Virus record (IMG/VR): IMGVR_UViG_3300002488_000057
Span: 2,897-27,277 of that record
Direction: 5' to 3' (one strand)
Length of the DNA: 24,381 nt
Source: a virus
The position numbers and the translations under genes were made by a program. The notes beneath the pieces are model-generated. The model was not told where the DNA came from, did not search any database, and saw only the letters and a program-made list of their open reading frames with translations. Positions 5,143 through 22,077 of this stretch are shown here, piece after piece (positions within the stretch are counted from its first letter, which is position 1; every line of letters begins with the position of its first letter).

Positions 5143-5150
5143 GTAAATAG
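5143..5150 (-). promoter_or_regulatory. CTATTTAC, variant of the recurrent intergenic octamer, before tail sheath
   Basis: The coding strand reads CTATTTAC, one base from the CTATTTAT octamer found in front of other late genes. It lies 33 bases before the sheath start and just after a small hairpin (5157-5175). It is a candidate promoter element by recurrence only. Confidence 0.35.
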
Positions 5151-5156
5151 TAAGTT

Positions 5157-5175
5157 AGTATCCAAATGGAATACT
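5157..5175. other. Small intergenic hairpin between gp15 and gp18
   Basis: AGTATCC and GGAATACT pair (seven base pairs with one bulged base) around an AAAT loop. On the coding strand no U-tract follows, so it is not a convincing terminator for the genes here. It may protect or process the mRNA between gp15 and the heavily expressed sheath gene. Confidence 0.35.
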
Positions 5176-6786: not shown

Positions 6787-8043
6787 TTATCCTACAAATA
6801 TCTTGAGTGGCGCTCTTTCCAAGATGGTAGCAGTATTATCAATTATACTCTTATCTGATTCTGTCAATTTTTGATAAGTCATCTCAGCTAACTGGGTCTT
6901 TAGTTCTTCTCTTAGTGAATTTTGCTCGTCTTTGGCTTGGCTTAACAGGTCTGAGGCGTTAAGAGTTACAGATTCACCCGGTATTGGGACAACTCCTCCA
7001 AATTTGCCTCTGATCTGCCCCAGTGTCTCTTTCGATAAAGCAAGCGCAAATCTTCTAATCCATTGCTTACCAATAGAATTGATGTTTTCATACGGTATGT
7101 TTTCAAATGGAAGAGTGTTCATATTATTAATACCAGCCTCTCCACCGCCATCATCTTCAAAGACACCTGTTTCAACAGAAAACCTAACCCAAAACTTTTC
7201 AGGCGATACAGTATCTGGCGTTGGATATATTCTTAACTGATTGTCATTAATTTCGTATGAATAATGCGACGTTCTTGTATATAGGTGATCTTCGTAAGCA
7301 ATGGCTTGCATTTTGTTTTGCCAAGCGGGAATTACGTTAAAAGAAGAGTCATCTGCATACTGTCCGTATGTGTGAAAATCACCAACAACATTTAAGCCGC
7401 CATAGTAACCATAAAATCTCCACATCTGTCTTGGTGTAACATAATAAACTTGCCTAATTTTAATTCTTTTGTCTCCAACTTTATTATAGAAAGGGAATGA
7501 AGAAGAATTATCAGATTGATTTTTGATAATTGTTTGCAAGTCATAATCTTGCTGCATTGAGACTCTATCAAACGATGCCGAATAAAGAGGCTCAGTGCCT
7601 CCTACAGTCGCTTCTGTGCTAAATGTATCCCCTAACCTAAAGGCGTAATCAAAACGGAATTTTGGGTACTTAGTGGCCACCCCTGTGCCTGTTGTGACCT
7701 CACCCTGATGATTGAAAGAAGCTGTCGCTGCACCCAAAGCAGAACCAAGAGCATTTTTTGCCTGATGAAGATTGACAATGTAAGAATATTCTAGACACGC
7801 CTCTTCGTAATTAGCATAAACACTGCCGCTTGTGATCTCCAAATCAAGAACATCTCCTCCGAGCTTCTTGTAAGTGTATGCGACCTGCGTTGCAGCACCA
7901 GTTAAGAAGCCAACAGAGCCTGTATATGCGCCAATAGCACATGCATCTTTAATGTGGGCAGTAGTAGTTTCCCCAAGAGTTACACTCTCAGGCAGTATTA
8001 TGGCACTAGTATTAGATGCCGGTGTCAGTGTTGGTAAACTCAT
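6787..8043 (-). CDS. 13: Neck / head-completion protein, gp13-like
   Basis: A 418-residue protein. The C-terminal part (about 323-395: IGKQWIRRFALALSKETLGQ, then a KFGG-x-PIPGESVTLNASDLL stretch and a charged helix) matches the conserved end of T4 gp13-type neck proteins. The middle (about 190-290: KIRQVYYVTPRQMWRFYGYY, LRIYPTPD) is aromatic-rich. T4 gp13 is 309 residues. The start at 8043 is preceded by GGAGGTTTC; an overlapping ATG at 8047 is out of frame. A CTATTTAT octamer ends 20 bases in front of the start, so 13-14-15 may be one transcription unit. The N-terminal 120 residues are not recognised. Confidence 0.78.
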   Translation of the reverse strand: MSLPTLTPASNTSAIILPESVTLGETTTAHIKDACAIGAYTGSVGFLTGAATQVAYTYKKLGGDVLDLEITSGSVYANYEEACLEYSYIVNLHQAKNALGSALGAATASFNHQGEVTTGTGVATKYPKFRFDYAFRLGDTFSTEATVGGTEPLYSASFDRVSMQQDYDLQTIIKNQSDNSSSFPFYNKVGDKRIKIRQVYYVTPRQMWRFYGYYGGLNVVGDFHTYGQYADDSSFNVIPAWQNKMQAIAYEDHLYTRTSHYSYEINDNQLRIYPTPDTVSPEKFWVRFSVETGVFEDDGGGEAGINNMNTLPFENIPYENINSIGKQWIRRFALALSKETLGQIRGKFGGVVPIPGESVTLNASDLLSQAKDEQNSLREELKTQLAEMTYQKLTESDKSIIDNTATILERAPLKIFVG

Positions 8044-8063: not shown

Positions 8064-8071
8064 ATAAATAG
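8064..8071 (-). promoter_or_regulatory. CTATTTAT octamer before gp13-like gene
   Basis: An exact copy of the recurrent intergenic octamer on the coding strand, 20 bases before the gp13-like start and ahead of the GGAGG ribosome binding site. The same 20-21 base spacing occurs before the genes starting at 16067 and 21842. Confidence 0.45.
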
Positions 8072-8089: not shown

Positions 8090-8482
8090 TTACTGTGCTT
8101 CGTTGATGGCTTTTACAATAGTTGCTTTTGTTGAAGTTCTTTTGATATTGCAACCAAGATCATTGGCAATTATAAGAAGCTCTTTCTTTGTTAATTTAGA
8201 CAAATCCTTTTTCTCTTCTTCTTGCTCTGGTTCTTCGTTCAACTCTGGTGTTGGCTCAAGTGATAAGAACTGTGGTTCTATGATCGCTGGCTTGACTTCT
8301 GGTTCTTTTTTAATGCTGTTAAGTTTTTGCAAAACTTTATCGCATGCACTTGATGCGCTTTTCATGCGCTCAAGGACAACTGAGTTGTCTTCAACTACTT
8401 TGGTAATTTTCGCTTCTTGCTCTCTTGCTTTTGCTCGCTCGATTCTTTTCTTTCTTCTCAAGCGTTGTGATCTTCTAGCCAT
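8090..8482 (-). CDS. Basic protein with SAP/Rho-N-like C-terminal domain
   Basis: A 130-residue protein in three parts. Residues 1-30 are strongly basic (MARRSQRLRRKKRIERAKAR). Residues 55-92 are a Pro/Glu-rich linker. Residues 92-130 (KDLSKLTKKELLIIANDLGC, then IKRTSTKATIVKAINEAQ) have the helix-extended-helix pattern of SAP or Rho-N-terminal-like nucleic-acid-binding domains. It follows a strong terminator, so it probably has its own promoter, and it precedes the neck genes. Such proteins occur beside head genes in several phages. A role in binding DNA or RNA during packaging or as an internal head protein is inferred, not shown. Confidence 0.8.
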   Translation of the reverse strand: MARRSQRLRRKKRIERAKAREQEAKITKVVEDNSVVLERMKSASSACDKVLQKLNSIKKEPEVKPAIIEPQFLSLEPTPELNEEPEQEEEKKDLSKLTKKELLIIANDLGCNIKRTSTKATIVKAINEAQ

Positions 8483-8514
8483 TATAACTCCTGTTTATAT
8501 AATTAGCATTTCAA

Positions 8515-8544
8515 ATAAAAAAGCCTTGGCGATTGCCAAGGCTT
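8515..8544 (-). terminator. Rho-independent terminator after the Lys/Ala-rich peptide gene
   Basis: A perfect 10-base-pair stem (8521-8530 with 8535-8544) closed by a four-base loop, followed on the coding strand by a run of T (8515-8520). It lies 21 bases after the stop of the 57-residue peptide and 38 bases before the SAP-like gene. This is the strongest terminator shape in the window and ends the capsid transcript. Confidence 0.9.
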
Positions 8545-8752: not shown

Positions 8753-9331
8753 TTATGCATCTGGAACAGCATCAATAGCAATACCCTCTAAAGTGATAAG
8801 TAGTTTCCCGGTGCTATATGTCCCGGTAGTTCCGGACTTGCCACTAACAAGATAAAGATATTTATTAGTTTCAGAGTCATAATCTGCCTCAGTTACTGCT
8901 CCACCGACACGAGATCCCTTAGTAAGATCAGCATTGCAATCAACAAGAGTTACAGTACCAGTTACAGTAGCCCCTTGATTATCATCACTGGCGCTGCCGA
9001 GTACCAAATCAATGTCAACTACTCCAGTAGCCGGAACTTCCAAACAAGCTATTTCAGCATAAGTGATAAGTCCGTGAGTAGCCTGATTGATTACTGCAAT
9101 AAAGCAATCCTCAGTGGCACTACTTTTACCAATGATTCTCGGCGTGTTTGTATCACTAGCATTAGTGTTAGATGCTAAATCAACACTAATTTCAGTAATG
9201 ATTTTGTTACCAATTCTCATAGTTGTTTGACGTGTTACAGTTGCGGAGTTTGATCCCGCTGTTACTGAATCGGTTGCGCCTCTTTTCATAAGAGACTTGA
9301 GTCTTTTACGACCTAATCTTCTACTTCCCAT
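8753..9331 (-). CDS. Probable head accessory / decoration protein after the capsid gene
   Basis: A 192-residue protein with a basic N-terminus (MGSRRLGRKRLKSLMKRG) followed by a Thr/Val/Gly/Asp-rich beta-type body and a KLLITLEGIAIDAVPDA end. I do not recognise a named family. The basic 'RRLGRKRL-SL' N-terminus next to a gp23-like gene is a pattern I recall from other marine myovirus structural genes, but this is memory and not a search. Its place, one gene after the major capsid gene, and its beta-rich composition fit a capsid decoration or head-binding protein. It has a long leader of about 130 bases with a candidate promoter (9463-9470), so it may be expressed separately from the capsid gene. 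TAAGGAGAAAATATT precedes the start. Confidence 0.75.
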   Translation of the reverse strand: MGSRRLGRKRLKSLMKRGATDSVTAGSNSATVTRQTTMRIGNKIITEISVDLASNTNASDTNTPRIIGKSSATEDCFIAVINQATHGLITYAEIACLEVPATGVVDIDLVLGSASDDNQGATVTGTVTLVDCNADLTKGSRVGGAVTEADYDSETNKYLYLVSGKSGTTGTYSTGKLLITLEGIAIDAVPDA

Positions 9332-9462
9332 AATATTTTCTCCTTATAAATTTAATATTATTGCAATAACTTGATCTTAATCAATGACATATACCAGCGG
9401 CCTCGGTACATATCTTTCTAGGAGCAGCCGCCCCGCCCCAAGGAGAATAAAACCTAGTCAAT
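9332..9462 (-). other. Long untranslated leader with GC-rich tract
   Basis: About 131 bases with no gene lie between the octamer at 9463-9470 and the start of the 192-residue protein. On the coding strand it holds GGGGCGGGGCGG (9428-9439), strikingly GC-rich against this AT-rich genome, and a GAGGCCGCT core flanked by short pairing arms near 9390-9412. No terminator or second ribosome binding site is seen. It may fold into a structured 5' leader. Confidence 0.4.
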
Positions 9463-9470
9463 ATAAATAG
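9463..9470 (-). promoter_or_regulatory. CTATTTAT octamer downstream of the capsid terminator
   Basis: An exact octamer lying directly after the capsid-gene terminator hairpin (9481-9515) and 131 bases ahead of the next start. A terminator immediately followed by this motif is the best single argument that it marks a transcription start. On the opposite strand the same bases include an exact TATAAATA. Confidence 0.5.
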
Positions 9471-9480
9471 TTTTCAAATT

Positions 9481-9515
9481 AAGAAACCCCCAAGTCCGAA
9501 GACAAGGGGGTTCTT
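9481..9515 (-). terminator. Terminator-like hairpin after the major capsid gene
   Basis: The coding strand reads AAGAACCCCC-TT-GTC-TTCG-GAC-TT-GGGGG-T-TTCTT: a long stem with a TT/TT internal mismatch and one bulge, closed by a C(UUCG)G tetraloop. It lies 19 bases after the capsid stop. The U-tract is short, so termination may be partial; it could also protect the capsid mRNA. Confidence 0.75.
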
Positions 9516-11301: not shown

Positions 11302-12519
11302 TTATTTAATACCAGCCAACTTTTTCATATGATCTGCAAATGTAAATTGTTGTTCTGGTTTTTTGCGTCTTGGTAACATACCTGACAAGTTTGACTTTCT
11401 ATTTACTGACTCGCTAAGTGATTGTGGCCCCTTATTTTTGGTGGTGCCCACTGTAGCTCTAAGAGTCTCTTGGAGAGTCTTTGCTTCATCTGGTGTGTTG
11501 GCTTGTGCGATGGCTTCAACAATCTTGTTTTTTTGTCGCTCATTCAAGGAGGCATCGCTAAGTGTCTTGTTGCAATACAATAATTTTGCATTGCTCAAAA
11601 GTGTTTCGTTGAGAGAGTTATTTAGCTCATCAACAATTTTTAATAAATCTTTAACCTGTGTGGCTTGCTTACGAACAGTTTCGTCGAGTTCTTCGATCTT
11701 CTTGTTATACTCTTCATCTTCTTCTTTATCTTTACTGTCTTCCATTGCAGCTAATTTCTTTTCTTGTTCGTATTTTAAGGTTCCTTCATCTGTGGTGATG
11801 TGACCGGCTTTGGCCTCACCCATATCAACGCTAAGCTCTTCATTTAATGCGTTAAGAAGGTCTTCTAAAAGAGTATCAGGGAGTTCAGCATCTTCTTCAC
11901 CAGCATCAGTATCGCCGGCAAGGTCAAGTGGCTCTTCAGCACCTGTTTCTTCACCACCCAAATCCATGTCAAGGCCCAAATCATCAGCAGGCTCTTCAGC
12001 GGCTGGTTGTTCGGTCGCTTCAGCTTCATCTTGTGATAAGTGCAAGTCGCCTAAGTCAATATCAAAATCTTCTGGTGAGAAATCATATGTATTCATACTA
12101 ACATTCACTTCGCCTTCTGGACTGTGGCCTCCAGCAAGTGGAATATTGTTTATGGCGCTTGGCGCAGGAGCAGCAGTTGCACCGCCTCCCATGGCCATAC
12201 CTTCTTCTTCTTGTAGTAGAGATTCGTCTGCTTCTTGCAAATCATTTTCCATAACTAAATTGGTCTTTTCTTCACCAATATATTGAATACCAACTTTACC
12301 CTGATCAGCTTCTGTTGTTACTCTGGCGAATTTGCCTTCATGTTGTACTAGCTGATTGCGTGTCCATTGGGTTTCATTAACTTCGCTTTCAAGCATGCTA
12401 TCGACCGCTTCTTTGATTTGCGGCGCATACTTTTCAATAATAGCCTGTTCTGCATTCTTTAGAGCCGCTTCCCTTAAAGCCGCAGCATCAACAATGGCTT
12501 GTTCTAACATTGAGGACAT
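11302..12519 (-). CDS. 22: Prohead core scaffold protein, gp22-like
   Basis: A 405-residue protein, longer than T4 gp22 (269). Residues 1-50 are a helical start (LREAALKNAEQAIIEKYAPQ). Residues about 145-235 are very acidic (for example DFDIDLGDLHLSQDEAEATE, EETGAEEPLDLAGDTDAGEE). Residues 250-310 are coiled-coil-like, and 300-360 (LLYCNKTLSDASLNERQKNK, then IVEAIAQANTPDEAKTLQ) resemble the conserved region of marine gp22-type scaffolds. It forms the core inside the prohead and is degraded by the gp21 protease. Glu residues after L/I-x occur throughout and offer cleavage sites. It sits directly before the capsid gene, as in T4. Confidence 0.87.
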   Translation of the reverse strand: MSSMLEQAIVDAAALREAALKNAEQAIIEKYAPQIKEAVDSMLESEVNETQWTRNQLVQHEGKFARVTTEADQGKVGIQYIGEEKTNLVMENDLQEADESLLQEEEGMAMGGGATAAPAPSAINNIPLAGGHSPEGEVNVSMNTYDFSPEDFDIDLGDLHLSQDEAEATEQPAAEEPADDLGLDMDLGGEETGAEEPLDLAGDTDAGEEDAELPDTLLEDLLNALNEELSVDMGEAKAGHITTDEGTLKYEQEKKLAAMEDSKDKEEDEEYNKKIEELDETVRKQATQVKDLLKIVDELNNSLNETLLSNAKLLYCNKTLSDASLNERQKNKIVEAIAQANTPDEAKTLQETLRATVGTTKNKGPQSLSESVNRKSNLSGMLPRRKKPEQQFTFADHMKKLAGIK

Positions 12520-12555: not shown

Positions 12556-12563
12556 ATAAATAG
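12556..12563 (-). promoter_or_regulatory. CTATTTAT octamer before scaffold gene
   Basis: An exact octamer 36 bases before the scaffold start, followed by an AT-rich run (GATTGATATATATATTAAT) and a TAGGAG ribosome binding site. It could drive the scaffold and capsid genes together, as no copy lies between those two. Confidence 0.45.
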
Positions 12564-12584
12564 TCTTGACTTGTGGAAAAGGAA

Positions 12585-15500
12585 TTAAGAGGCCGCCATT
12601 GTTATACCAGAATCATTAAAGTTGATCAATTCTATCATAAATGTTGCATTTGATGATGCACTATCAGAGGTATTGATTGTGAACTGGAGCGTAAACGTTT
12701 GGGTTGCGCTATTTGCACCTGTGTTGCTACTACCAGCCACAGCGATCGAAAAGTTCGGCGTAATCGATGCGTTCTCAGTAGTTGTCACTGACGAGAATGC
12801 TTTGTCTGTCGGGCTCCCAGACGCTCTTGCTATTGAGCCCTCAAAAGAGAACGACTGAGCATACGAGCATCCATCAAAATTTGCAAGCCCAAATACCCTG
12901 ATCGCTGCTGCGTGGTTTGCGTTTGGAACTGTTATTGTGACAACATCGGTGGCTGAGTTGTCGGAGATCGATGTTTTTCTGACGGTTAGTCTTGTATGGG
13001 AACCATTCTGGCCCTCTAGGTTGCCTTGTGAGATGGTCCCACCATTTACAAACTTGCCCCTATTGTAGAATACCCCTGCGTATGAGCTATGATTTTCACC
13101 AGCCAAAAACATTGTTGGGAATCCGTTTCCTTGTTGTTTGGCTTCAAACAAGTATTCATCATTAGAGCCAGATAATGTCAATAAGGCACCACTATCAGCA
13201 GTATCCCCAATACCAATATGCCCATTGGTGCCATCAAAATAAAACGCTCTTGTGTTGGTATCAGACTCAATTCTGAAATTACAATCGATACCGGCTTCAT
13301 TAATGACAACTTCACAAGGTTCTGCTCCGCCAGAGCCAACATCCTCGCCACCAATACTGAATATTTCGCTTAGAGTTGCAGTGCCACCAGTACCACCAGC
13401 CATAACATAAAATCTAAATTCTCCACCTTCATCACCACCAGACTTATCTGATGAGTGCACTGTCATTTGTCCATATGTTGTTGAGTTGTTGCCGGAGTCT
13501 AGTCCTAAGAATTTGATACCGCCAAGAGTATTATTGTCGCTTTCACCAACGTTATCGCTAGGCTGCTTAAAGAAGTTCATAAGAACACCAGCATTTGAAT
13601 CGCTTGGTGTTGTATTTTTGAGTTCAATGGTTGGCTTTTCTGACGTCGCAGACTGAATGACAAATTCAGTAGTGTCAAATGTAGTGGTTGAACCACTGAA
13701 TATGCTGGATCCTGTTAGTATGAGAGTTGTGCCGTCAAAGGTGAAATTGGCCTCTGCGTTCATGCTGTCTGCGTTGACTGCTGTTACAATTCTATTATCT
13801 AGCCCATTCGCCAAGAAGTCAGAAACATCAACAGAAAGCTCGTTGGAGCCATAATCTAAGCCTGCACCTGCAACGTTTGAATTAAGCATAGAGCCCTCGA
13901 CTGCATTGGCCGCTATAGTCAAGGTACCATCGGCCCCAAGTGAGGCATCACCACCTAAAGTACGATAAAGAATATCATCACCATCTGACACTAATAACTG
14001 CCCTGCGCTTCCTAGTGCAAGAGCGCTTGGGTCTCCACTAGAATCTCCAACAATGATTTTTCCTCGTGCCAAGCCTGCCATTTTAGCTAGAGTAACGCCG
14101 TTGTCCTTCAGTCGAAGAGAATCTGAGTTAATCTCAATTGTGGAGTCATCAACACTTACTGAAAGGCCAGATATGCTATCAACACCACCAGCAAATGCCA
14201 ATCCGTCACCAGCGATCGAACCACTAATGCCAACTTTATCAGAAGCGATTTTGACAGCACCAGATACTTGCACGGCAAGCGCAGAACCACCGCCGCCTGT
14301 TAGTCCATCTCCTGCCACCGCAGTTGCAATCTCAGCAATTCCTACAGAGTTGTCAGCTAACTCAATGGCCCCACCAGCGGCAACAGAAACGTCTGTTGAT
14401 GCAGCATTTATATTTGCAAAAATGGCGTCTTCTAAGTTTGAGAACGTAATTGTCTTATGTGTCCCATTATCAGAAAACAAGAATTTATCTTGCGTCTGAT
14501 GTAGGCCTGTTCCACCGAGAGCAGATAATTCGTTGATATCAAGCTCCAATGCAGATATAGAATTAACTCCACCCTGATATCCAAGGCCATTTCCAGCAAT
14601 AGACCCGGAGATACCAACTTTGTCAGATACGACAATGGCCGCTCCGGTGACTTGCACTTCTAATCGCCCAGTTCCACTATTTGCTAATCCGTCTCCGGCA
14701 ATGTTTGTTATGAAAGTGCTTATTGATGTCTTTTTGCTAACACTATCATCAGCATCAATAAAGATCAAATGATCTGCGCTGTAGAGGGGCGTACCCGTAG
14801 TAAGGTTATTCAAGTGTATCATTAACTCGCCACTATCGAATTGTAATCCCGAGTTTAGATCTTTTAAATCAACCGCTAATGTTGAAATAGAATCAACACC
14901 ACCAGCAAAAGATATTCCATCACCAGCGATAGAGCCTGTAATTCCAACTTTGTCTGATGCTAATTTCACCGCACCAGACACCTGTATGTCAAGGGCCCCA
15001 CTATTATCTACTAGGCCAGCCCCTGCCAAATTGCTAGCGTTGGCTAATGTTATTGATTGTACATTAATTGACGAACCCGTAATGTCGCCACCAGCTTGTA
15101 TTGTTCCGGAGCCCGAGATTGTACCATTCACTACCAATGAGCCCAAGCTACCGGGGGCTGCTATGGTGAGTGCCCTTGAAGTACTATTAAAAGTTAGGGC
15201 TGAATATCCTTGAATGTTTCCGGCGCCGTTTGCAACTATAACTTGATGCTGTGTTGATCCGCCGTATGTTGTAACAGCAGCGTTATATAAATTAGCAACT
15301 TGTAATGCTGTTACTTGCTTCAGGGCATTACTAGCATCTGAATCGGCGATAAGGAGAACATCATCATCATGAATTGCCCCATTCTTAACTGTTGCCGTTG
15401 TTGGATCGACAATCAAGCCACTAGAATTGTTAAGCCCACTGTTCAAGGCAATTGTTACACCAACGCCACTCAATGCAGAGCCATCGCCATGAAAAGAGGA

Positions 15501-16067
15501 GCCCGAAATAGCACCAGAACCAGATACAGTGGTGCATGTGATAGCTGAACCAGCTATGTTCCCAATAACATTGATGTTTCCTGAGCCTGAAATGTTTCCA
15601 ACAACAGAAAGTTTTTCGCTGGGGTTTGTCACACCAATACCAACATTATCACCCAAGATGGTCAGCTTGGTGTTACCACCAGTTTTAAATAAAAACCTAT
15701 CAGAACCGTGATCGTAGTCAATTTGTCCTTCATCATTATCAGCCACGGACCCAAAAATAATTGAGCCACCATATGCGTTAGGTGATTGAAAATGTATCTT
15801 AGGCTTTCCACTAGATTCCAGAGTCAAGAGAGCATCTGTGGTTGTTGCGATCGAACCAGCAGAGCCGCTTTTAATATGCATCAGAGTCTCTGGTGAGGTA
15901 GTTCCGACCCCCAAATTATTTTTTACATGCAGATTAGAACCCGTCAGTGTTTGAAAGTCCTTGCTACCAGTTATAGACTGATCGGAGTGTGTATCAACGA
16001 TATCTTCAATCGTGCCTTGTGTCGCCCCTTGAAAGTTGACGTTCTTGTTAAGAATGTTATATGACAT
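12585..16067 (-). CDS. Large fibre/adhesin-like protein with repeats (1160 residues)
   Basis: A fibre-like protein rich in Ser, Gly, Thr, Asn and Asp. Residues about 45-160 carry 'GVGTTSPETLMHIKSG' and 'GIGVTNPSEKLSVVGNISGS', the short beta-strand repeats of many phage fibre shafts. Residues 345-400, 456-510 and 584-640 are three copies of a roughly 55-residue unit (V-x-G-A-x-x-x-x-SDKVGI-x-GSIAG-x-G-x-x-x-x-GGV-x-SIS). Residues 640-685 are nearly identical to a module of the 724-residue protein. The C-terminal 150 residues (from about 1010) are a separate Ser/Thr-rich beta domain, possibly receptor-binding. No peptidase S74 chaperone end is seen. A role as a long tail fibre or head fibre is inferred. 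GAGGATTTTAA precedes the start. Confidence 0.85.
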   Translation of the reverse strand: MSYNILNKNVNFQGATQGTIEDIVDTHSDQSITGSKDFQTLTGSNLHVKNNLGVGTTSPETLMHIKSGSAGSIATTTDALLTLESSGKPKIHFQSPNAYGGSIIFGSVADNDEGQIDYDHGSDRFLFKTGGNTKLTILGDNVGIGVTNPSEKLSVVGNISGSGNINVIGNIAGSAITCTTVSGSGAISGSSFHGDGSALSGVGVTIALNSGLNNSSGLIVDPTTATVKNGAIHDDDVLLIADSDASNALKQVTALQVANLYNAAVTTYGGSTQHQVIVANGAGNIQGYSALTFNSTSRALTIAAPGSLGSLVVNGTISGSGTIQAGGDITGSSINVQSITLANASNLAGAGLVDNSGALDIQVSGAVKLASDKVGITGSIAGDGISFAGGVDSISTLAVDLKDLNSGLQFDSGELMIHLNNLTTGTPLYSADHLIFIDADDSVSKKTSISTFITNIAGDGLANSGTGRLEVQVTGAAIVVSDKVGISGSIAGNGLGYQGGVNSISALELDINELSALGGTGLHQTQDKFLFSDNGTHKTITFSNLEDAIFANINAASTDVSVAAGGAIELADNSVGIAEIATAVAGDGLTGGGGSALAVQVSGAVKIASDKVGISGSIAGDGLAFAGGVDSISGLSVSVDDSTIEINSDSLRLKDNGVTLAKMAGLARGKIIVGDSSGDPSALALGSAGQLLVSDGDDILYRTLGGDASLGADGTLTIAANAVEGSMLNSNVAGAGLDYGSNELSVDVSDFLANGLDNRIVTAVNADSMNAEANFTFDGTTLILTGSSIFSGSTTTFDTTEFVIQSATSEKPTIELKNTTPSDSNAGVLMNFFKQPSDNVGESDNNTLGGIKFLGLDSGNNSTTYGQMTVHSSDKSGGDEGGEFRFYVMAGGTGGTATLSEIFSIGGEDVGSGGAEPCEVVINEAGIDCNFRIESDTNTRAFYFDGTNGHIGIGDTADSGALLTLSGSNDEYLFEAKQQGNGFPTMFLAGENHSSYAGVFYNRGKFVNGGTISQGNLEGQNGSHTRLTVRKTSISDNSATDVVTITVPNANHAAAIRVFGLANFDGCSYAQSFSFEGSIARASGSPTDKAFSSVTTTENASITPNFSIAVAGSSNTGANSATQTFTLQFTINTSDSASSNATFMIELINFNDSGITMAAS
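14148..15035 (-). repeat. Three copies of a ~55-residue coding repeat in the 1160-residue fibre
   Basis: The copies lie at 14868-15035, 14538-14702 and 14148-14318. Each encodes an AGxGL, V-x-G-A, SDKVGI-x-GSIAG, GGV-x-SIS order. The outer copies are more alike than the middle one, which reads AAIVVSDKVG and YQGGVNSIS. Spacers differ in length and content, so the copies are modules in a shaft and not a simple tandem array. Confidence 0.85.
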
Positions 16068-16088: not shown

Positions 16089-16096
16089 ATAAATAG
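16089..16096 (-). promoter_or_regulatory. CTATTTAT octamer before the 1160-residue fibre gene
   Basis: An exact octamer 21 bases before the fibre start, between the end of the LamG-like gene and the ribosome binding site. Spacing matches the copies at 8064 and 21863. Confidence 0.45.
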
Positions 16097-16109: not shown

Positions 16110-17483
16110 TTATGTTACTATATCCCTTAATTTGGATGACGAATTATATATCGCTGAAATCTGATTTGCAGACAACTCTTCAGCCCAGTGTGCAAAATCA
16201 TCAATACCTTCTGAGAATACTTGTGTATCATTGCCGTCATACGCACCTAATTCTTTTACTGAGGTTGTGACGACAGCATTAGCCGTTCCAACTAGTGATC
16301 CATTAATATAGAACTTTGAATTGGTTCCATTCGCAACAACAGCCATGTGAGTCCATGAGGTTGTTCCCTCAAGCGCAGTCATATCATACCCAGACGAATA
16401 AAATTGGCCACCAGACTCAGTATAAACTCCAAGTTCATCAGTAGAGTCTTCTGTTAAAATGGGGTAATCCTGTGTATTAACAGGGGACCCGCCGGATTCT
16501 CGCCTTAAGATAGCACCCCAGTCTGAGCCGGTTCTCTTCGAATAGAACCAAAAAGAAAATGTATAGATACCACCAAGTAGCGGGATCTCAGATTCAAACC
16601 TAGCGGGTGCTGTGTTGCCAGATGAACCAAAGTCAATAAACCCGTTTTCGTATTTTCCGTTGTCTGTGCTGATAGTGGCATTTGTAAATGAATTGTTTCC
16701 TATCTGCGACACAGCAGATATACCTGAGAAATATAGCCTAGGGTAAGGAATTGTGACACTGTTAGAGCCGCCGCTATTGAACACGATGGTTATAAGAGCT
16801 TCTTTATCTGCACCGGCAGATTTACCAACCTTTATATGTATTAGGTCTCCTTCCGACACAGATTGATTTAGACCAGAAAAGATTTTTTGATTACAGTCAG
16901 TAGTCCCACCAGCCATGTTAGACACCTTCTCAGAAAAATCATCTGCACCAACTGTTTGATTTACAATTGTCGACCCATAGTCCGACTGGTTTTTGTATAT
17001 ACTTAGCGTTACGTTTCCATCATTAGCCGTACTGAAATTGTTGCCTTTAACAGAAACTATTACTTTGTCGATGGTAGTTGTTTTTGGTACGATAAACCAA
17101 GATTTTATACCTGATGCTGCTGATATTGATGAAGCGTTAACCCAGTTAACCGGTTTGTTGTTTGTTGTTAAGTCCACATGCCCAGTCGCATATTCCATAC
17201 CTACCCCGGATCCACCACCTCCACCAGACTGTGTTGCCCAACTTAGTTGCCCCGATCCATTTGTTTTTAAAACCTGATCTGCGCTTCCATCTGAAATTGG
17301 AAAGGTAAAAGCTTCATTAAATGTGATTGAGCCATCTGAGCCTGATATTTTCATTCTCAAGGACCCGCTTGTTTCAAATCCAATATAGTCCTCACCAAAA
17401 TCGATTTGTGTATTTCTTTCTGCGTCATCTGCTGCTTTCAGGTCTCCGATGACTTGAGGCCCCTTTGAATACTTATAAGACAT
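16110..17483 (-). CDS. Virion fibre-like protein with LamG-type C-terminal domain
   Basis: A 457-residue protein. Residues 1-87 (YIGFETSGSLRMKISGSDGS, then FTFPISDGSADQVLKTNGSG, ending QLSWATQ) resemble fibre-stem start modules of other marine phages. A Gly-rich hinge (SGGGGGSG, 86-93) leads to a beta-rich middle. Residues about 290-450 have a concanavalin A/LamG-like pattern: FESEIPLLGGIYTFSFWFYS, WTHMAVVANGTNSKFYINGS, LVGTANAVV, and IDDFAHWAEELSANQISAIY. Such jelly-roll domains often bind glycans, so it may attach to host surface polysaccharide. It follows a strong terminator, and CTGGAGATCACA lies before the start, so a nearby promoter is expected. The exact place in the virion is unknown. 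Confidence 0.85.
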   Translation of the reverse strand: MSYKYSKGPQVIGDLKAADDAERNTQIDFGEDYIGFETSGSLRMKISGSDGSITFNEAFTFPISDGSADQVLKTNGSGQLSWATQSGGGGGSGVGMEYATGHVDLTTNNKPVNWVNASSISAASGIKSWFIVPKTTTIDKVIVSVKGNNFSTANDGNVTLSIYKNQSDYGSTIVNQTVGADDFSEKVSNMAGGTTDCNQKIFSGLNQSVSEGDLIHIKVGKSAGADKEALITIVFNSGGSNSVTIPYPRLYFSGISAVSQIGNNSFTNATISTDNGKYENGFIDFGSSGNTAPARFESEIPLLGGIYTFSFWFYSKRTGSDWGAILRRESGGSPVNTQDYPILTEDSTDELGVYTESGGQFYSSGYDMTALEGTTSWTHMAVVANGTNSKFYINGSLVGTANAVVTTSVKELGAYDGNDTQVFSEGIDDFAHWAEELSANQISAIYNSSSKLRDIVT

Positions 17484-17509
17484 TTGTGATCTCCAGCATT
17501 AATTAGCTT

Positions 17510-17547
17510 TAAAATTAAAAAAGGGCTGGTGCCCGAAGGCACCAACC
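17510..17547 (-). terminator. Rho-independent terminator after the 724-residue fibre gene
   Basis: A 10-position stem (17524-17533 with 17538-17547, one C/A mismatch) with a UUCG loop, followed on the coding strand by CCTTTTTTAATTTTAAAG (a T-rich tract, about 17510-17522). It lies 28 bases after the gene end. Shape and tract make this a confident call. Confidence 0.9.
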
Positions 17548-17574
17548 ACAATATATGAGATATAATATTCTATA

Positions 17575-19749
17575 TTAGAATACTCTCCATAAATCATTAG
17601 CAACATATACCAATTCAACAGCAGCAAATGGCGATTCTAAACGAATTGAGGCAGCGCCATCAATTGTTTGAGAACCAGCACGGTCGATTGTGATATAACG
17701 AGCAGCAGAACAGTCAGAAGGAGCCTTAACTTTAACTGATTGTCCTACAGTAGGAGAAGCAGGAAGAGTTACGCTATCTTCACCATCACTACCCATATCA
17801 GCAAAGTAGTTAACGCCAATTACCAATGTATCGCCATCGGCTTTTGCCGCAACAACAGCAGCAGCATCAGACATGTAGACTTTAAGACTATCAAGTCCAA
17901 TCTTCTTTAATGTTCCACCGTCAGAAATTAACATTTCATCAGCATCAACAGCATCACCAGAAGCTAATTCAGTTTGTCCGCTAATAACATTGTCATTAAG
18001 CATTCCAGACTCAACAGCATCAGCAGCAATAGTCAAAGCACCACCGTCAGCAATTGTAGCATCACCAGAAACTTTACCAAAAGCGTGGTTTTGAATACTA
18101 TCAACACCAACTCTTTTAATAACACCGCCATCACTGATCATTAACTCATCAGCATCAAGAATGTCAGCGTGAGCCAACTCATCTTTACCAGAGATAATGT
18201 CATCATTAAGCATAGCATGATGAATAGAAGAAGCAGCAATAGTTAAAACACCAGTGTCAGCGATAGTAGCATCACCACTAACCTTAGCAACGGTGTACTC
18301 AAACATCTTAAGAACATTAGTCTGCTTCATGGTTCCGTTATCATTATGAATGAATCCGTCACCGTCAGCAAGAGTAGAAGTCCCACGAGCATTACCACCA
18401 TCACACACAGTATTTACTTCAGCAGCAGTTGCAGCAATAACTGTGGTTTTGGCGCCTGAATCAGAAAATACAGGCATGTAATAAGTACCAGCCGCACCTT
18501 GGAACAACTCTAGAGTTGCATCCGCAGATGGTGTTCCACAAGACAATACAGTCTCATGAGCATCAGCAGGACCTTCAAAAGTGAAAGAACTAGAAATGTT
18601 GATTGTGGTAGAATTAACAGTAGTTGTTGTTCCGTGAACAGTCAAGTTACCAGCAATGCTAACACCATTGTCATCAATAATCATTTCTTGATTGTTATTA
18701 GCATAGAACTTAATCTCATTAGCAGTTTCGAAATCAATCTTGGTTTCGTCATCCTCACCAATTTTGATGTCAGTTGCAAAAAGAGAAGTAACATTAGTCT
18801 GTGCAGCAGCCAAAGAAACAACACCAGAGTTGCTTACAGTTGCATCTCCGCTTAGTGTCACAGCAGCAGGGTCACCATTAGAATCACCAAGGATGAATTT
18901 ACCAGACGCCAATCCAGCCATTTTAGCCAAAGAGATAGCGTTATCAGCAACGGTAATTGCGCCATTAGCAGCAAGTGTTGCATCTCCGCTTAATGCCACT
19001 TCAGCCGGATCACCGTTTGAATCACCAATGATGATACGACCCGCAGTAATACCAGCCATTTTAGCAAGAGTTACACCGTTGTCTTTCAAACGAAGAGTGT
19101 CAGAGTTGATTTCGATACCAGAATCGTCAACCTTAACTTCCATTCTTCCACCATTGTTACCTAAACCATCACCAGCTACAGCAGCAATAAAGTTACCACC
19201 AGATACACTTTTTAACTTAGAATCGGTTGCATCAAGAAAAGCAACACTATCAGCAGCATAAGCATAAGTTTCGGTACCAAACCCATCAAGATAATTTAAT
19301 TCAGTAGCAGAAGCATCAACAGCAGCCAATTTAGTAAAGTCAGCCTTTACCAAACCAGAAACACCATCAAGCAAGTTTAATTCAGCAGCAGTAGATGTCA
19401 TTGCAACACCGCCAATTTGTAAACCACCAGCCTTTGCAACGTTGAAATCAACATCATTTGCAAGAACAAGAGATTGAGCAGCAAGAGTCATGATGTCTGC
19501 ATCAGAATCACAACCAATTGTCGATGAGTCATCAACTGCTAATGATTTAAGAGCAGTATCACCATCCGCATCAACAGAAAAACCTGTCATGGTAATGGTA
19601 CCCATGGTAAGGTCACCACTACCGTCAATAGAGGTAGCACCGGCAATTGCACCAGCGTCACCTACACCAGCAGTTCCGGCATTAACACCGTCTTCTGCTT
19701 TAATAGAACCGGAAGCGACAAACGCCCCCAATTGAAATTTATAAGCCAT
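17575..19749 (-). CDS. Fibre-like repeat protein (724 residues), highly expressed style codons
   Basis: A fibre-like protein of low sequence complexity with Ala, Asp, Gly, Ser and Thr. It has the 'ELNLLDG' type motif at 123-129, ELNYLDG at 150-156, and AAEVNTVCDG near 442-451, known from fibre proteins of many phages. Two coding repeats sit at residues 223-318 (GVTLAKMAGITAGRIIIGDS type) and 489-622 (KVSGDATIADTGVLTIAA type). Residues 208-253 match the 1160-residue protein. Residues about 628-724 are the C-terminal domain shared with the 308- and 202-residue proteins (ITIDRAGSQTIDGAASIRLE, SPFAAVEL). Many Arg codons are CGT, as in the capsid gene, which suggests an abundant product. It has its own terminator. 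Confidence 0.85.
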   Translation of the reverse strand: MAYKFQLGAFVASGSIKAEDGVNAGTAGVGDAGAIAGATSIDGSGDLTMGTITMTGFSVDADGDTALKSLAVDDSSTIGCDSDADIMTLAAQSLVLANDVDFNVAKAGGLQIGGVAMTSTAAELNLLDGVSGLVKADFTKLAAVDASATELNYLDGFGTETYAYAADSVAFLDATDSKLKSVSGGNFIAAVAGDGLGNNGGRMEVKVDDSGIEINSDTLRLKDNGVTLAKMAGITAGRIIIGDSNGDPAEVALSGDATLAANGAITVADNAISLAKMAGLASGKFILGDSNGDPAAVTLSGDATVSNSGVVSLAAAQTNVTSLFATDIKIGEDDETKIDFETANEIKFYANNNQEMIIDDNGVSIAGNLTVHGTTTTVNSTTINISSSFTFEGPADAHETVLSCGTPSADATLELFQGAAGTYYMPVFSDSGAKTTVIAATAAEVNTVCDGGNARGTSTLADGDGFIHNDNGTMKQTNVLKMFEYTVAKVSGDATIADTGVLTIAASSIHHAMLNDDIISGKDELAHADILDADELMISDGGVIKRVGVDSIQNHAFGKVSGDATIADGGALTIAADAVESGMLNDNVISGQTELASGDAVDADEMLISDGGTLKKIGLDSLKVYMSDAAAVVAAKADGDTLVIGVNYFADMGSDGEDSVTLPASPTVGQSVKVKAPSDCSAARYITIDRAGSQTIDGAASIRLESPFAAVELVYVANDLWRVF
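17884..18285 (-). repeat. Two-copy 64-residue repeat in the 724-residue fibre
   Basis: Residues 489-552 (18094-18285) and 559-622 (17884-18075) both read KVSGDATIAD-x-G-x-LTIAA, then MLND-x-x-ISG, then DADE-x-x-ISDGG, then a K-x-x-G-x-DS end. About two-thirds of positions agree by eye. The spacing is 6 residues. Confidence 0.9.
18796..19083 (-). repeat. Two-copy ~48-residue repeat in the 724-residue fibre
   Basis: Residues 223-270 and 271-318 lie back to back; both contain LAKMAG, then a GDSNGDPA, then LSGDAT motif. A related unit also occurs once in the 1160-residue fibre. Confidence 0.85.
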
Positions 19750-19761
19750 AAAAAATCCTCC

Positions 19762-19792
19762 AATATAGACCTAAAGAGGCACTAGGCCCCTC
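19762..19792 (-). other. Imperfect hairpin in the leader of the 724-residue fibre gene
   Basis: Downstream of the CTATTTAG motif the coding strand reads GAGGGGCCTAGTGCCTCTTT, able to form a short bulged stem (GAGG with CCTC) followed by three T. It is too weak to call a terminator, but could be a leader structure. Confidence 0.3.
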
Positions 19793-19796
19793 GATA

Positions 19797-19804
19797 CTAA
19801 ATAG
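19797..19804 (-). promoter_or_regulatory. CTATTTAG, variant octamer before the 724-residue fibre gene
   Basis: One base from the CTATTTAT octamer, 47 bases before the start and just after the 308-residue gene. With the terminator at 17510-17547 it would bound the 724-residue gene as a single-gene unit. Confidence 0.35.
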
Positions 19805-19825
19805 GAGACCGTGTCCGTTTTCACG

Positions 19826-20752
19826 CTAATATAAGAAGAATTTATCCACCCCATTCGAGTATATATTCACGGCGGCATAGGGGCTTTCTAGGATAACCGA
19901 GGTTGTCCCATCAATTGTTTGAGATCCGCTAGCTTTAATAGTAATATTGTTGGTATTACTATTCCCTCCCTCATCTTTTATAATTAATATTTGGCCACTC
20001 GAAAGAGTCTGGGCACCCGGCATCTGAACAGTTAGTGCTGATGAGGCGGAAACCCCAATAAAATAGCTTGCATTAGAAGCAGTTATTGAGGCTGTGACTA
20101 TTTGTCTTGTGGCCGCTATCCCTCCGGCAACAACCAAAGGCTTATTAAAGGTTATGGCACCGATATTATCATCTGTGCTTATGGTGCTAGCATCTCCCAA
20201 ATGCAGAGATCCAGAGCCTAAAAATATTTCATTCCACCTTTGTGTCAGTGAGCCCAAATTATAAACAGCAGACCCAGATGGTAAAATCGAACCAGTTATT
20301 GCAAATGCACCACTTAGTGCGAGCGTGTTCGACGCATATGATAATTTAGCAGAGCCACTAATTTTACCATTGCCTGTGTGGAATTGTAGTGAATTGGTTG
20401 GCCCCTCTCCTGCGACTGATGAGGTTACAACAATATTTCCATTAGCATCAAGCCCAAGATAACTATCTGCACCCGCCAGAGATCCAGAAACCGGGTTGTC
20501 CAAATTTATACCGGCAGAAGCGGTTAAATCAGGAACAGTTAGCGTAGTTGTTGAAGCATTAAATGTAAAGGTGCTACTAGCATTAAGTCCTAAATCACCA
20601 GCGATTGTTTTGTAGAATGGTATTCTATTGTCTGAACTGTTTTGCAATTCAAATTGCTTTACATTTTCTAGACCGGACCCATCACCTGAAAAGGAGCCAC
20701 TCTGGATTACACCAACAGATGAAACGCTTCCGCTTAAAACATTGTAACCCAT
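19826..20752 (-). CDS. Fibre-like protein with shared C-terminal domain (308 residues)
   Basis: A 308-residue protein. Early residues have the 'FSGDGSGLENV' pattern and 'FYKTIAGDLGLNASSTFTFN'. Residues 119-155 (NSLQFHTGNGKISGSAKLSY) resemble residues 20-55 of the 202-residue protein. Residues 165-190 (NLGSLTQRWNEIFLGSGSLH) are the L-G-S-x-x-x-RW-x-x-x-x-L type motif common in fibre stems. Residues about 212-308 are the shared C-terminal domain, ending in SQTIDGTTSVILESPYAAVN and a YSNGVDKFFLY end. It is part of the fibre cassette, 16 bases after the 202-residue gene. A trimeric short fibre or fibre tip is plausible, not shown. Confidence 0.82.
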   Translation of the reverse strand: MGYNVLSGSVSSVGVIQSGSFSGDGSGLENVKQFELQNSSDNRIPFYKTIAGDLGLNASSTFTFNASTTTLTVPDLTASAGINLDNPVSGSLAGADSYLGLDANGNIVVTSSVAGEGPTNSLQFHTGNGKISGSAKLSYASNTLALSGAFAITGSILPSGSAVYNLGSLTQRWNEIFLGSGSLHLGDASTISTDDNIGAITFNKPLVVAGGIAATRQIVTASITASNASYFIGVSASSALTVQMPGAQTLSSGQILIIKDEGGNSNTNNITIKASGSQTIDGTTSVILESPYAAVNIYSNGVDKFFLY

Positions 20753-20768
20753 ACATCAAGCCCCCCTG

Positions 20769-21377
20769 CTAGTAAATAAACCAGTTATCCACTCCGTTTG
20801 AATAGAGAGTTAATGCCGGATTGTCACCTGTTAGGCTATATGTTGCATCTCGATCAATTTTTTCAGTACCGGATCCGGACACTGCTATTTTCTTTGAATC
20901 TATTCTTGTCGAAGCAGTCTCGTCTTTAATAATTAGCATCTTGCCAAACCCAGCGACTGATGCCGATGGCAGTAGAATAGAAGTGTAGTTGGCATGAGAA
21001 ACGCCGATAATGCTATCACTTGCTTGTACTGTATATGAAGCAACAGATAAGTGATGATAATGCTGCCTTAAGCCACCGGAGACAATTGAAACAGATCCAG
21101 TAAAAATATGTTGATCGCCACTGTCGTCTCCAAAATTGGTTCCACCGCTAGAAGATAGCTCGATCTTGTTTGTGTGTATAACATCAAATGTATGGGCTTG
21201 CAGTGTTCCACTGATAATCATCGTACCAGTTAGGAACATATTATTTGTCGAACTATCAAATGTAAAGTTCTCACTACCAGTCAATTCGCCATTTAGTGTT
21301 TTAATAAATTGAACACTATTGGCCGAACCTTTGCCGGTCTGAGAACCAGATATATATGCCCATCCAAATTCTGCCAT
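20769..21377 (-). CDS. Fibre-like protein with shared C-terminal domain (202 residues)
   Basis: The smallest of the three proteins with the shared C-terminal domain. Residues 20-57 (NSVQFIKTLNGELTGSENFT) look like a module of the 308-residue protein. Residues about 105-202 read QHYHHLSVASYTVQASDSII, then ILLPSASVAGFGKMLIIKDE, then SGSGTEKIDRDATYSL and a LYSNGVDNWFIY end. It lacks the long repeats of the larger copies. It starts 12 bases after the 150-residue gene and is preceded by AATAGGATTGAATT. It could be a short tail-fibre subunit or a homologous adaptor; the role is inferred from context. Confidence 0.82.
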   Translation of the reverse strand: MAEFGWAYISGSQTGKGSANSVQFIKTLNGELTGSENFTFDSSTNNMFLTGTMIISGTLQAHTFDVIHTNKIELSSSGGTNFGDDSGDQHIFTGSVSIVSGGLRQHYHHLSVASYTVQASDSIIGVSHANYTSILLPSASVAGFGKMLIIKDETASTRIDSKKIAVSGSGTEKIDRDATYSLTGDNPALTLYSNGVDNWFIY

Positions 21378-21389
21378 AATTCAATCCTA

Positions 21390-21842
21390 TTAAAATGTGC
21401 TAGTAGCAGCATATACATTAGTACCAGCGGTTGAACCAACAAACGCAACACGATCAATACCAAGTATTTCAAACGTTCGATATTCCCTTTCGTCTGGTGT
21501 AATATCCGCCGCATCTGCATGCCCAGAGTCACTGGGGGCCACGATAGTGACCGGAGTTGGGGCTGCACTAGACCCAACTTGTGTAAACGATTCCGGAAGC
21601 TCAAACCACCTCTGGAAGGCATGACAGTATCCATACACCTTTATGGTTCCGGGCGACGCACCATCATTATCTTCAGTTAATACATGTAGATATCTTTGAT
21701 TCTCAGTGGCGTATCCTGCGGTTGTTGCTGTAATCCCAAGTAGATCGCCGGCGCTATTAAGTGTAGCTGCGGTGCCATTAGAACCTGCTATGTTTTTTGG
21801 GCTCCTTGTTCTACCCCAACTATTATATTTATGTGCTGCCAT
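21390..21842 (-). CDS. Virion-like protein of unknown function (150 residues)
   Basis: A 150-residue protein I do not recognise. It starts MAAHKYNSWGRTRSPKNIAG and ends in an AFVGSTAGTNVYAATSTF stretch; the rest is Ala/Thr/Gly/Ser-rich with predicted beta strands (RYLHVLTED, GTIKVYGYCHAFQRWFELP). No signal or membrane segment is visible. It begins the fibre cassette, with a CTATTTAT octamer 20 bases before the start and a GGAGATTTAATT ribosome binding site. Position and composition suggest a small virion or adaptor protein, perhaps joining fibres to the particle. Confidence 0.75.
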   Translation of the reverse strand: MAAHKYNSWGRTRSPKNIAGSNGTAATLNSAGDLLGITATTAGYATENQRYLHVLTEDNDGASPGTIKVYGYCHAFQRWFELPESFTQVGSSAAPTPVTIVAPSDSGHADAADITPDEREYRTFEILGIDRVAFVGSTAGTNVYAATSTF

Positions 21843-21862: not shown

Positions 21863-21870
21863 ATAAATAG
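21863..21870 (-). promoter_or_regulatory. CTATTTAT octamer after bS21, before the fibre cassette
   Basis: An exact octamer, adjoining the TGA stop of bS21 and 20 bases before the 150-residue gene. It would separate the protease-bS21 unit from the fibre cassette. The opposite strand also holds an exact TATAAATA. Confidence 0.45.
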
Positions 21871-22077
21871 TCATTTGTTAGCTTTTGCTAATTCTTTCGC
21901 TCTTCTTCTATCAGATCGCTTTTTCGCTCTTCTTCTCTTTTCGGAAGGCTTTAAGTATCGCTGCTTGTCTTTATATTCTTCGATAATTCCAAGCTTTTTA
22001 ACTTTTTTGTTAAATCTTTTGACTACTCTCTCAATATTTTCATTTCGTCTTGGCTTAACCACTAGATTCGTTGCCAT
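21871..22077 (-). CDS. rpsU: Phage-encoded ribosomal protein bS21
   Basis: A 68-residue, very basic protein, close in length to bacterial bS21. It has VKPRRNENIERVVKRFNKKV (compare the E. coli [20 protein letters not shown] start), KKLGIIEEYKDKQRYLKPSE (compare the Y-x-KP-(S/T)-x-x-(R/K) core) and an RRRAKKRSDRRRAKELAK tail. bS21 sits on the small subunit near the 16S 3' end and the anti-Shine-Dalgarno site and helps initiation. Phage copies are known, including in marine phages. It begins inside the stop of the 137-residue gene (TAATG), so it is translated with the protease operon. It could replace host bS21 on ribosomes late in infection (inferred). Confidence 0.95.
   Translation of the reverse strand: MATNLVVKPRRNENIERVVKRFNKKVKKLGIIEEYKDKQRYLKPSEKRRRAKKRSDRRRAKELAKANK

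Follow-up and report, generated by a model that had tools for sequence, protein, structure and literature searches.

The octamer CTATTTAT recurs between the late genes of an uncultured virus, and its role is the question raised by this locus. The first-pass annotation offered three readings: a late motif of a different kind, antisense late promoters, or a signal acting in RNA. The window, a stretch of 24,381 nucleotides, makes up most of a 27,277-base virus record, and its main genes all lie on the minus strand. They encode T4-like virion parts, including the tail sheath, head-tail adaptor, major capsid protein and head protease. Among named matches, the capsid protein is closest to those of Flavobacterium phage immuto, an uncultured phage and Microcystis phage Mel-JY01, at 37-39% identity, and megablast of the window against named phages gives no match. 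A capsid scan of IMG/VR produced at least 600 matches, with hundreds of contigs closer than the named phages; the best 80 of these, marine and with capsids 59-71% identical, form the set of relatives used here. No tRNAs were found in the window. A gene for a ribosomal protein S21 homologue (phrog_21469, 21871-22077) adjoins the head protease region, and Mel-JY01 also has an annotated RpsU gene near its protease. At 16110-21377, several adjoining structural or fibre genes match the same proteins of one relative, G001, and look like diverged paralogues sharing domains.

Counting the octamer confirms its first-pass positions. CTATTTAT occurs at 8064, 9463, 12556, 16089 and 21863, always on the minus (coding) strand and never on the plus strand, and the entire 27,277-base record holds the same five copies and no others. 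All five are intergenic, within the 972 nt (4.0%) of DNA between genes, so the exact octamer is indeed absent from genes on the coding strand. This exclusion does not extend to CTATTTAC or the shorter core CTATTTA, which lies twice inside coding-strand genes (10891 and 23322); CTATTTA also has two antisense occurrences in the window. The related words CTATTTAC at 5143 and CTATTTAG at 19797 are present as described, both intergenic. An order-1 model of the intergenic DNA predicts 0.085 copies of CTATTTAT and gave five or more in none of 5000 simulations.

The relatives place this word within a broader pattern. Upstream of genes in the 80 marine genomes, the top 8-mer is ACTATTTA, with 189 sense copies against 0.86 expected from coding sequence and 13 antisense; the variants CTAATTA and ACTACTTA are likewise enriched. 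As a check on the method, T4 counted in the same way gives TATAAATA, with 13 sense copies upstream against 0.20 expected. Mapped by homology, ACTA[TAC]TTA stands at operon heads. It is absent before the operon-internal genes 5207 and 6288 (0 of 42 and 0 of 37 relatives), and the capsid gene, located behind the core gene, has it in only 2 of 72. Antisense ACTA[TAC]TTA appears at none of the orthologous gene starts among the relatives' loci. Judged by position, this distribution over orthologous starts is the behaviour of an operon-head promoter.

Four of the window's sites, all on the minus strand like the others, lie at such operon heads. The core ACTATTTAT at 8064-8071 is 20 nt 5' of the head-tail adaptor (neck, gp13-like) gene (6787-8043), whose ortholog carries ACTA[TAC]TTA in 57 of 59 relatives. 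A second ACTATTTAT, at 12556-12563, is 36 nt 5' of the head-core gene (11302-12519), which precedes the major capsid gene (31 of 49 relatives), while ACTATTTAC at 5143-5150 is 33 nt 5' of the tail-sheath gene (2191-5109; 25 of 34). The variant core (A)CTAATTA at 2180-2186 stands 22 nt 5' of a tail-tube-like gene (1594-2157; 22 of 26). Additionally, the core at 9463-9470 lies 131 nt 5' of gene 8753-9331 and directly 3' of the terminator of the major capsid gene; two long relatives have cores at the equivalent spot after the capsid gene (121273 in G001, 116784 in G003).

The remaining sites are less complete or depart from the exact word. Three lack a clear upstream box: CTATTTAT at 16089-16096, preceded by T rather than A and 21 nt 5' of gene 12585-16067; ACTATTTAT at 21863-21870, 20 nt 5' of gene 21390-21842; and the weak core CTATTTAG at 19797-19804, 47 nt 5' of gene 17575-19749. 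In the stretch equivalent to 21863, G001 and G003 also have cores (109679 and 102554). The five exact copies are thus 20, 131, 36, 21 and 20 nt from their start codons, which agrees with the earlier remark that three stand 20-21 bases from a start. Intergenic CTAATTA variants at 2180, 8500 and 17500, 16-22 nt 5' of starts, were overlooked at first; they belong with the CTATTTAT set because CTAATTA itself is enriched in the relatives (60 against 0.83 expected). The variant at 8500-8506 lies 17 nt 5' of gene 8090-8482 and just 3' of a terminator (8521-8544), and the one at 17500-17506 lies 16 nt 5' of gene 16110-17483 and just 3' of another (17524-17547). With the hairpin at 9487-9510, immediately 5' of the CTATTTAT copy at 9463, these make three compact terminator-promoter junctions.

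An alignment of 166 non-redundant sites from the relatives reveals that the element is bipartite, GGCCTTTT-N12-ACTATTTA. In ten-fold cross-validation, 77 of the 166 sites carry the upstream box at one offset (-21 or -22 from the C of CTATTTA), leaving a box-to-core gap of 12-13 nt. With the register taken from the relatives' aligned sites, the corresponding window boxes, all on the minus strand, are GGGGGTTT at 9484-9491 (the -30 box of the 9463 promoter), TTCCTTTT at 12577-12584 (for 12556) and TTCCATTT at 5164-5171 (for 5143). The 9463 copy does follow a hairpin, as noted early on: CCCCCTTGTCTTCGGACTTGGGGG at 9487-9510 on the minus strand has a UUCG loop and a fold of -18.5 kcal/mol, and the G-run of the box doubles as the 3' arm of its stem. 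This site exemplifies the general case, in which a terminator preceding the core has its G-run and T-tract in the register of the upstream box. Terminators alone were considered as the source of GGGGTTTT enrichment and rejected, since the box persists at hairpin-free sites; of the 126 sites lacking a simple terminator hairpin, 63 still have it at this offset. TTTT stands at the predicted place in 14 of the 37 least-folding sites, against a mean of 0.8 elsewhere, so the GGCCTTTT box is not merely a terminator tail. A clear box is present in only about half of the sites and is lacking at 16089, 21863 and 19797 in the window, which counts against the promoter reading. Downstream, purines are enriched 5-7 nt past the core, and core-to-start-codon distances have a sharp onset at ~15 nt. 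Initiation at that point, with room needed in the leader for a ribosome-binding site, would produce this pattern.

Genome-scale distribution links the motif to the virion genes. In G001 (185 kb), matches to the late model of at least 14 bits lie at 97-131 kb, among virion genes, and every one of the 15 CTTGACA-type sigma70 sites of the gene (+) strand falls outside this block. In G003 (127 kb), the strongest matches (18-29 bits) occupy 101-120 kb, with no sigma70 site past 90 kb. Reversed-sequence controls in these two genomes give 5 and 0 matches. Several weaker matches (11-17 bits) outside the virion-gene block of G003 count against a late promoter. CTTGACA words are enriched in early and middle regions, and the distribution in G001 and G003 supports an early-to-late switch of promoter type, the timing being read from gene function. 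Near the end of G001, GTCCTGGACTATTTATCT repeats occur (L095 ~3491 and ~5092; G001 183491 and 185092); the TGTCCTGGAC portion of these repeats is over-represented away from the virion region, and it may have a regulatory role of its own.

Very probably, the octamer belongs to a gp55-type late promoter that is oriented with the genes, is new in both its core and its -30 box, and is shared across a large, so far uncultured group of T4-like phages from marine waters. Sequence statistics establish the motif, its strand and spacing, its orthologous conservation, its concentration in the late region and the presence of a gp55 homologue in relatives. Strand bias, orthologous operon-head position, a box at fixed distance and complementarity with sigma70-type promoters strongly support the first of the original readings, a different late motif. 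CTATTTAT would then be the core of a promoter with the consensus GGCCTTTT-N12/13-ACTATTTA(T), followed ~6 nt on by a purine that is probably +1. The -10 (melting) element would be ACTATTTA, in the position of T4 TATAAATA, probably recognized by a diverged phage sigma of the gp55 type, and the upstream box, spanning roughly -33 to -26, would add specificity. The reader of that box may be an extra C-terminal helical domain of the sigma or a gp33-like partner. Terminators of preceding operons would often supply the G-run and T-tract in box register.

The candidate sigma is known from relatives: the 27-kb record, a genome fragment, holds no sigma gene, so the promoter-sigma link is made through them. 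Four of the five long relatives (G001, G002, G003 and G005) encode gp55 homologues (phrog_234) of 230-241 residues, against 185 in T4. The Pfam model of sigma70 region 2 finds no match in the relatives, where phrog_234 does; too great a divergence of the factor is the probable reason. In a profile alignment, the region-2 part aligns with T4 gp55, with H95, Y97 and T99 falling on F103, Y105 and S107. Y97, which meets the -12 base in T4, is kept as Y105, while the residues at the -9 and -8 bases, H95 and T99, give way to F103 and S107. If the purine is +1, these residue changes parallel the promoter's differences from T4 at -13, -12, -9 and -8, a correspondence that is suggestive only. We infer the pairing of this sigma with the promoter from their co-occurrence.

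Beyond region 2, the gp55 of this clade carries an additional domain at its C terminus; it is highly conserved and is predicted to form a compact three-helix unit (pLDDT 89.7, pTM 0.77). A model of the full-length homologue has sigma factors as its best structural matches (Foldseek, best E 0.0095). The isolated domain yields nothing significant in Foldseek, with weak mixed matches that include several DNA-binding domains (E 2 or more). Sigma region 4 is not matched significantly either, a point against the gp55-type promoter reading, and identity of the domain with that region is not claimed; a profile search of the sigma alignment against sequences of solved structures also gives no match. 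No hydrophobic clamp-binding motif is visible at the C terminus of the gp55 homologues. The gp45 clamp domain PF09116, detected in T4, is undetected in the five relatives, though a diverged clamp could escape. The sigma gene of Rhodothermus phage RM378 (L193:43330-43929) lies close to the capsid gene; its product matches Pfam region 2, has a weak region 4 match below the curated cut-off, and is possibly intermediate between ordinary sigma factors and gp55. As a motif user, RM378 was rejected: TATTTAA-like AT-rich words occur upstream of its genes, but with no strand preference.

Across 50,697 named phage records, a clearly related gp55 is found only in immuto, Mel-JY01 and one uncultured huge phage. 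The word [ACG]TATTTAT precedes virion genes 20 times in sense and never in antisense in immuto (Flavobacterium), and 8 times against none in Mel-JY01 (Microcystis). Both phages resemble the marine group in having a sense-only TATTTA-type core upstream of virion genes and the same type of gp55. They differ from it in that no GGCCTTTT box is apparent by eye and the first base is more variable. Leaders in immuto have no clear ribosome-binding sites. LR756508, a huge phage with a related gp55, was rejected as a motif user, with no such motif around its capsid gene.

These phages bear on whether the promoter instead serves a host alternative sigma factor, exploited late by a phage without a sigma of its own. 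Although a -30 box with a -10-like core resembles ordinary bacterial promoters, and the record, only a fragment, has no sigma gene, this account is unlikely because hosts of different phyla (Bacteroidota and cyanobacteria) share the TATTTA-type core and the gp55-type sigma travels with it, encoded by both phages. To our knowledge, the consensus fits no known host sigma class. The host sigma70 form, TTGACA-N17-TATAAT, differs from the ACTATTTA/GGCCTTTT motif, and CTTGACA-type sites lie outside the virion blocks of G001 and G003.

A still less probable alternative is an RNA-level signal, a processing or stability element of late mRNA leaders. It would suit an octamer that is strand-specific, located in leaders and often preceded by hairpin terminators, but the conserved GGCCTTTT box 5' of it keeps a fixed DNA spacing even where no hairpin exists. 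Moreover, the variable core-to-start distance fits a promoter, sigma70 promoters serve the early and middle regions instead, and nothing in the window matches an Rfam family. Antisense T4-type late promoters are very improbable. TATAAATA is present on the plus strand at 9462 and 21862, as first reported, yet two copies against 1.5 expected is not above chance, and just two of the five octamers have the extension that creates it. Immuto has 13 antisense TATAAATA in its upstream regions; at orthologous starts, however, there is no antisense ACTA[TAC]TTA, the main genes run the opposite way, and the orientation given by the upstream box, the purine and the ribosome-binding-site spacing is that of the genes. 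The antisense TATAAATA copies are best read as by-products, the other-strand view of TATTTATA. Chance in AT-rich intergenic DNA can be dismissed: a whole-window dinucleotide shuffle (1.29 copies expected) reaches five in 1 of 100 runs, but the intergenic model never does, and the relatives' enrichment, strong strand asymmetry and operon-head conservation refute it.

Comparison with T4 defines the class of the promoter. In T4, gp55 recognizes the late promoters together with gp33 and the clamp gp45 (PMC2988020; PMC7892883), and these promoters show no -35 conservation (PMC2988020). Like T4 late promoters, the element is a short AT-rich octamer of the -10 type on the sense strand before virion operons, and relatives encode a phage sigma of the gp55 family. 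If the conserved purine is the start, it would also share their position at -13 to -6, reading A C T A T T T A against T A T A A A T A. Unlike T4, the core is ACTATTTA and not TATAAATA, which is at chance level in the window and missing from the relatives' top upstream 8-mers, and a conserved GGCCTTTT box stands at a fixed offset. The sigma is ~50 residues longer than T4 gp55 and ends in a helical domain, and no clamp-binding tail can be seen. On this evidence, the ACTATTTA element would work like a T4-type late promoter and is a variant of it, since it lacks the TATAAATA core and has an upstream box.

The late consensus of Aeromonas phage Aeh1 has a/g C at -13/-12, replacing TA (PMC2988020). 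Under the inferred start, the described Aeh1 consensus (A/G)CTAAATA shares 6 of 8 positions with ACTATTTA, which has TT in place of AA at -9/-8; the passage on Aeh1 mentions no upstream box (PMC2988020). Marine cyanophages of the S-PM2 type likewise have gp55-dependent late promoters in a marine T4-like background, and the S-PM2 consensus stays highly T4-like (PMC2988020). Later surveys queried cyanophages and Melnitz with TATAAAT (PMC3037559, PMC9004378), and with this query they would miss a ACTATTTA-type motif. A search of open-licence literature found no published description of CTATTTA/CTATTTAT or TATTTAT late promoters.

A further proposal, possible but rather doubtful, is that this marine T4-like branch has clamp-free late transcription, in which gp55's own C-terminal DNA-binding domain would read the -30 box, a two-box sigma logic would have been regained or kept, and terminators would double as the box. 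Such phages are common in marine virus collections, as the IMG/VR capsid scan indicates. Published annotation of marine T4-like phages sought TATAAAT, so the late genes of this group would lack assigned promoters, and with the motif the operons of uncultured genomes can readily be mapped. A sigma that apparently swapped its clamp tail for an extra domain, taken together with a promoter that has an upstream box, opens a direct way to test how clamp-coupled late transcription evolved, in phages that can be cultured, immuto among them.
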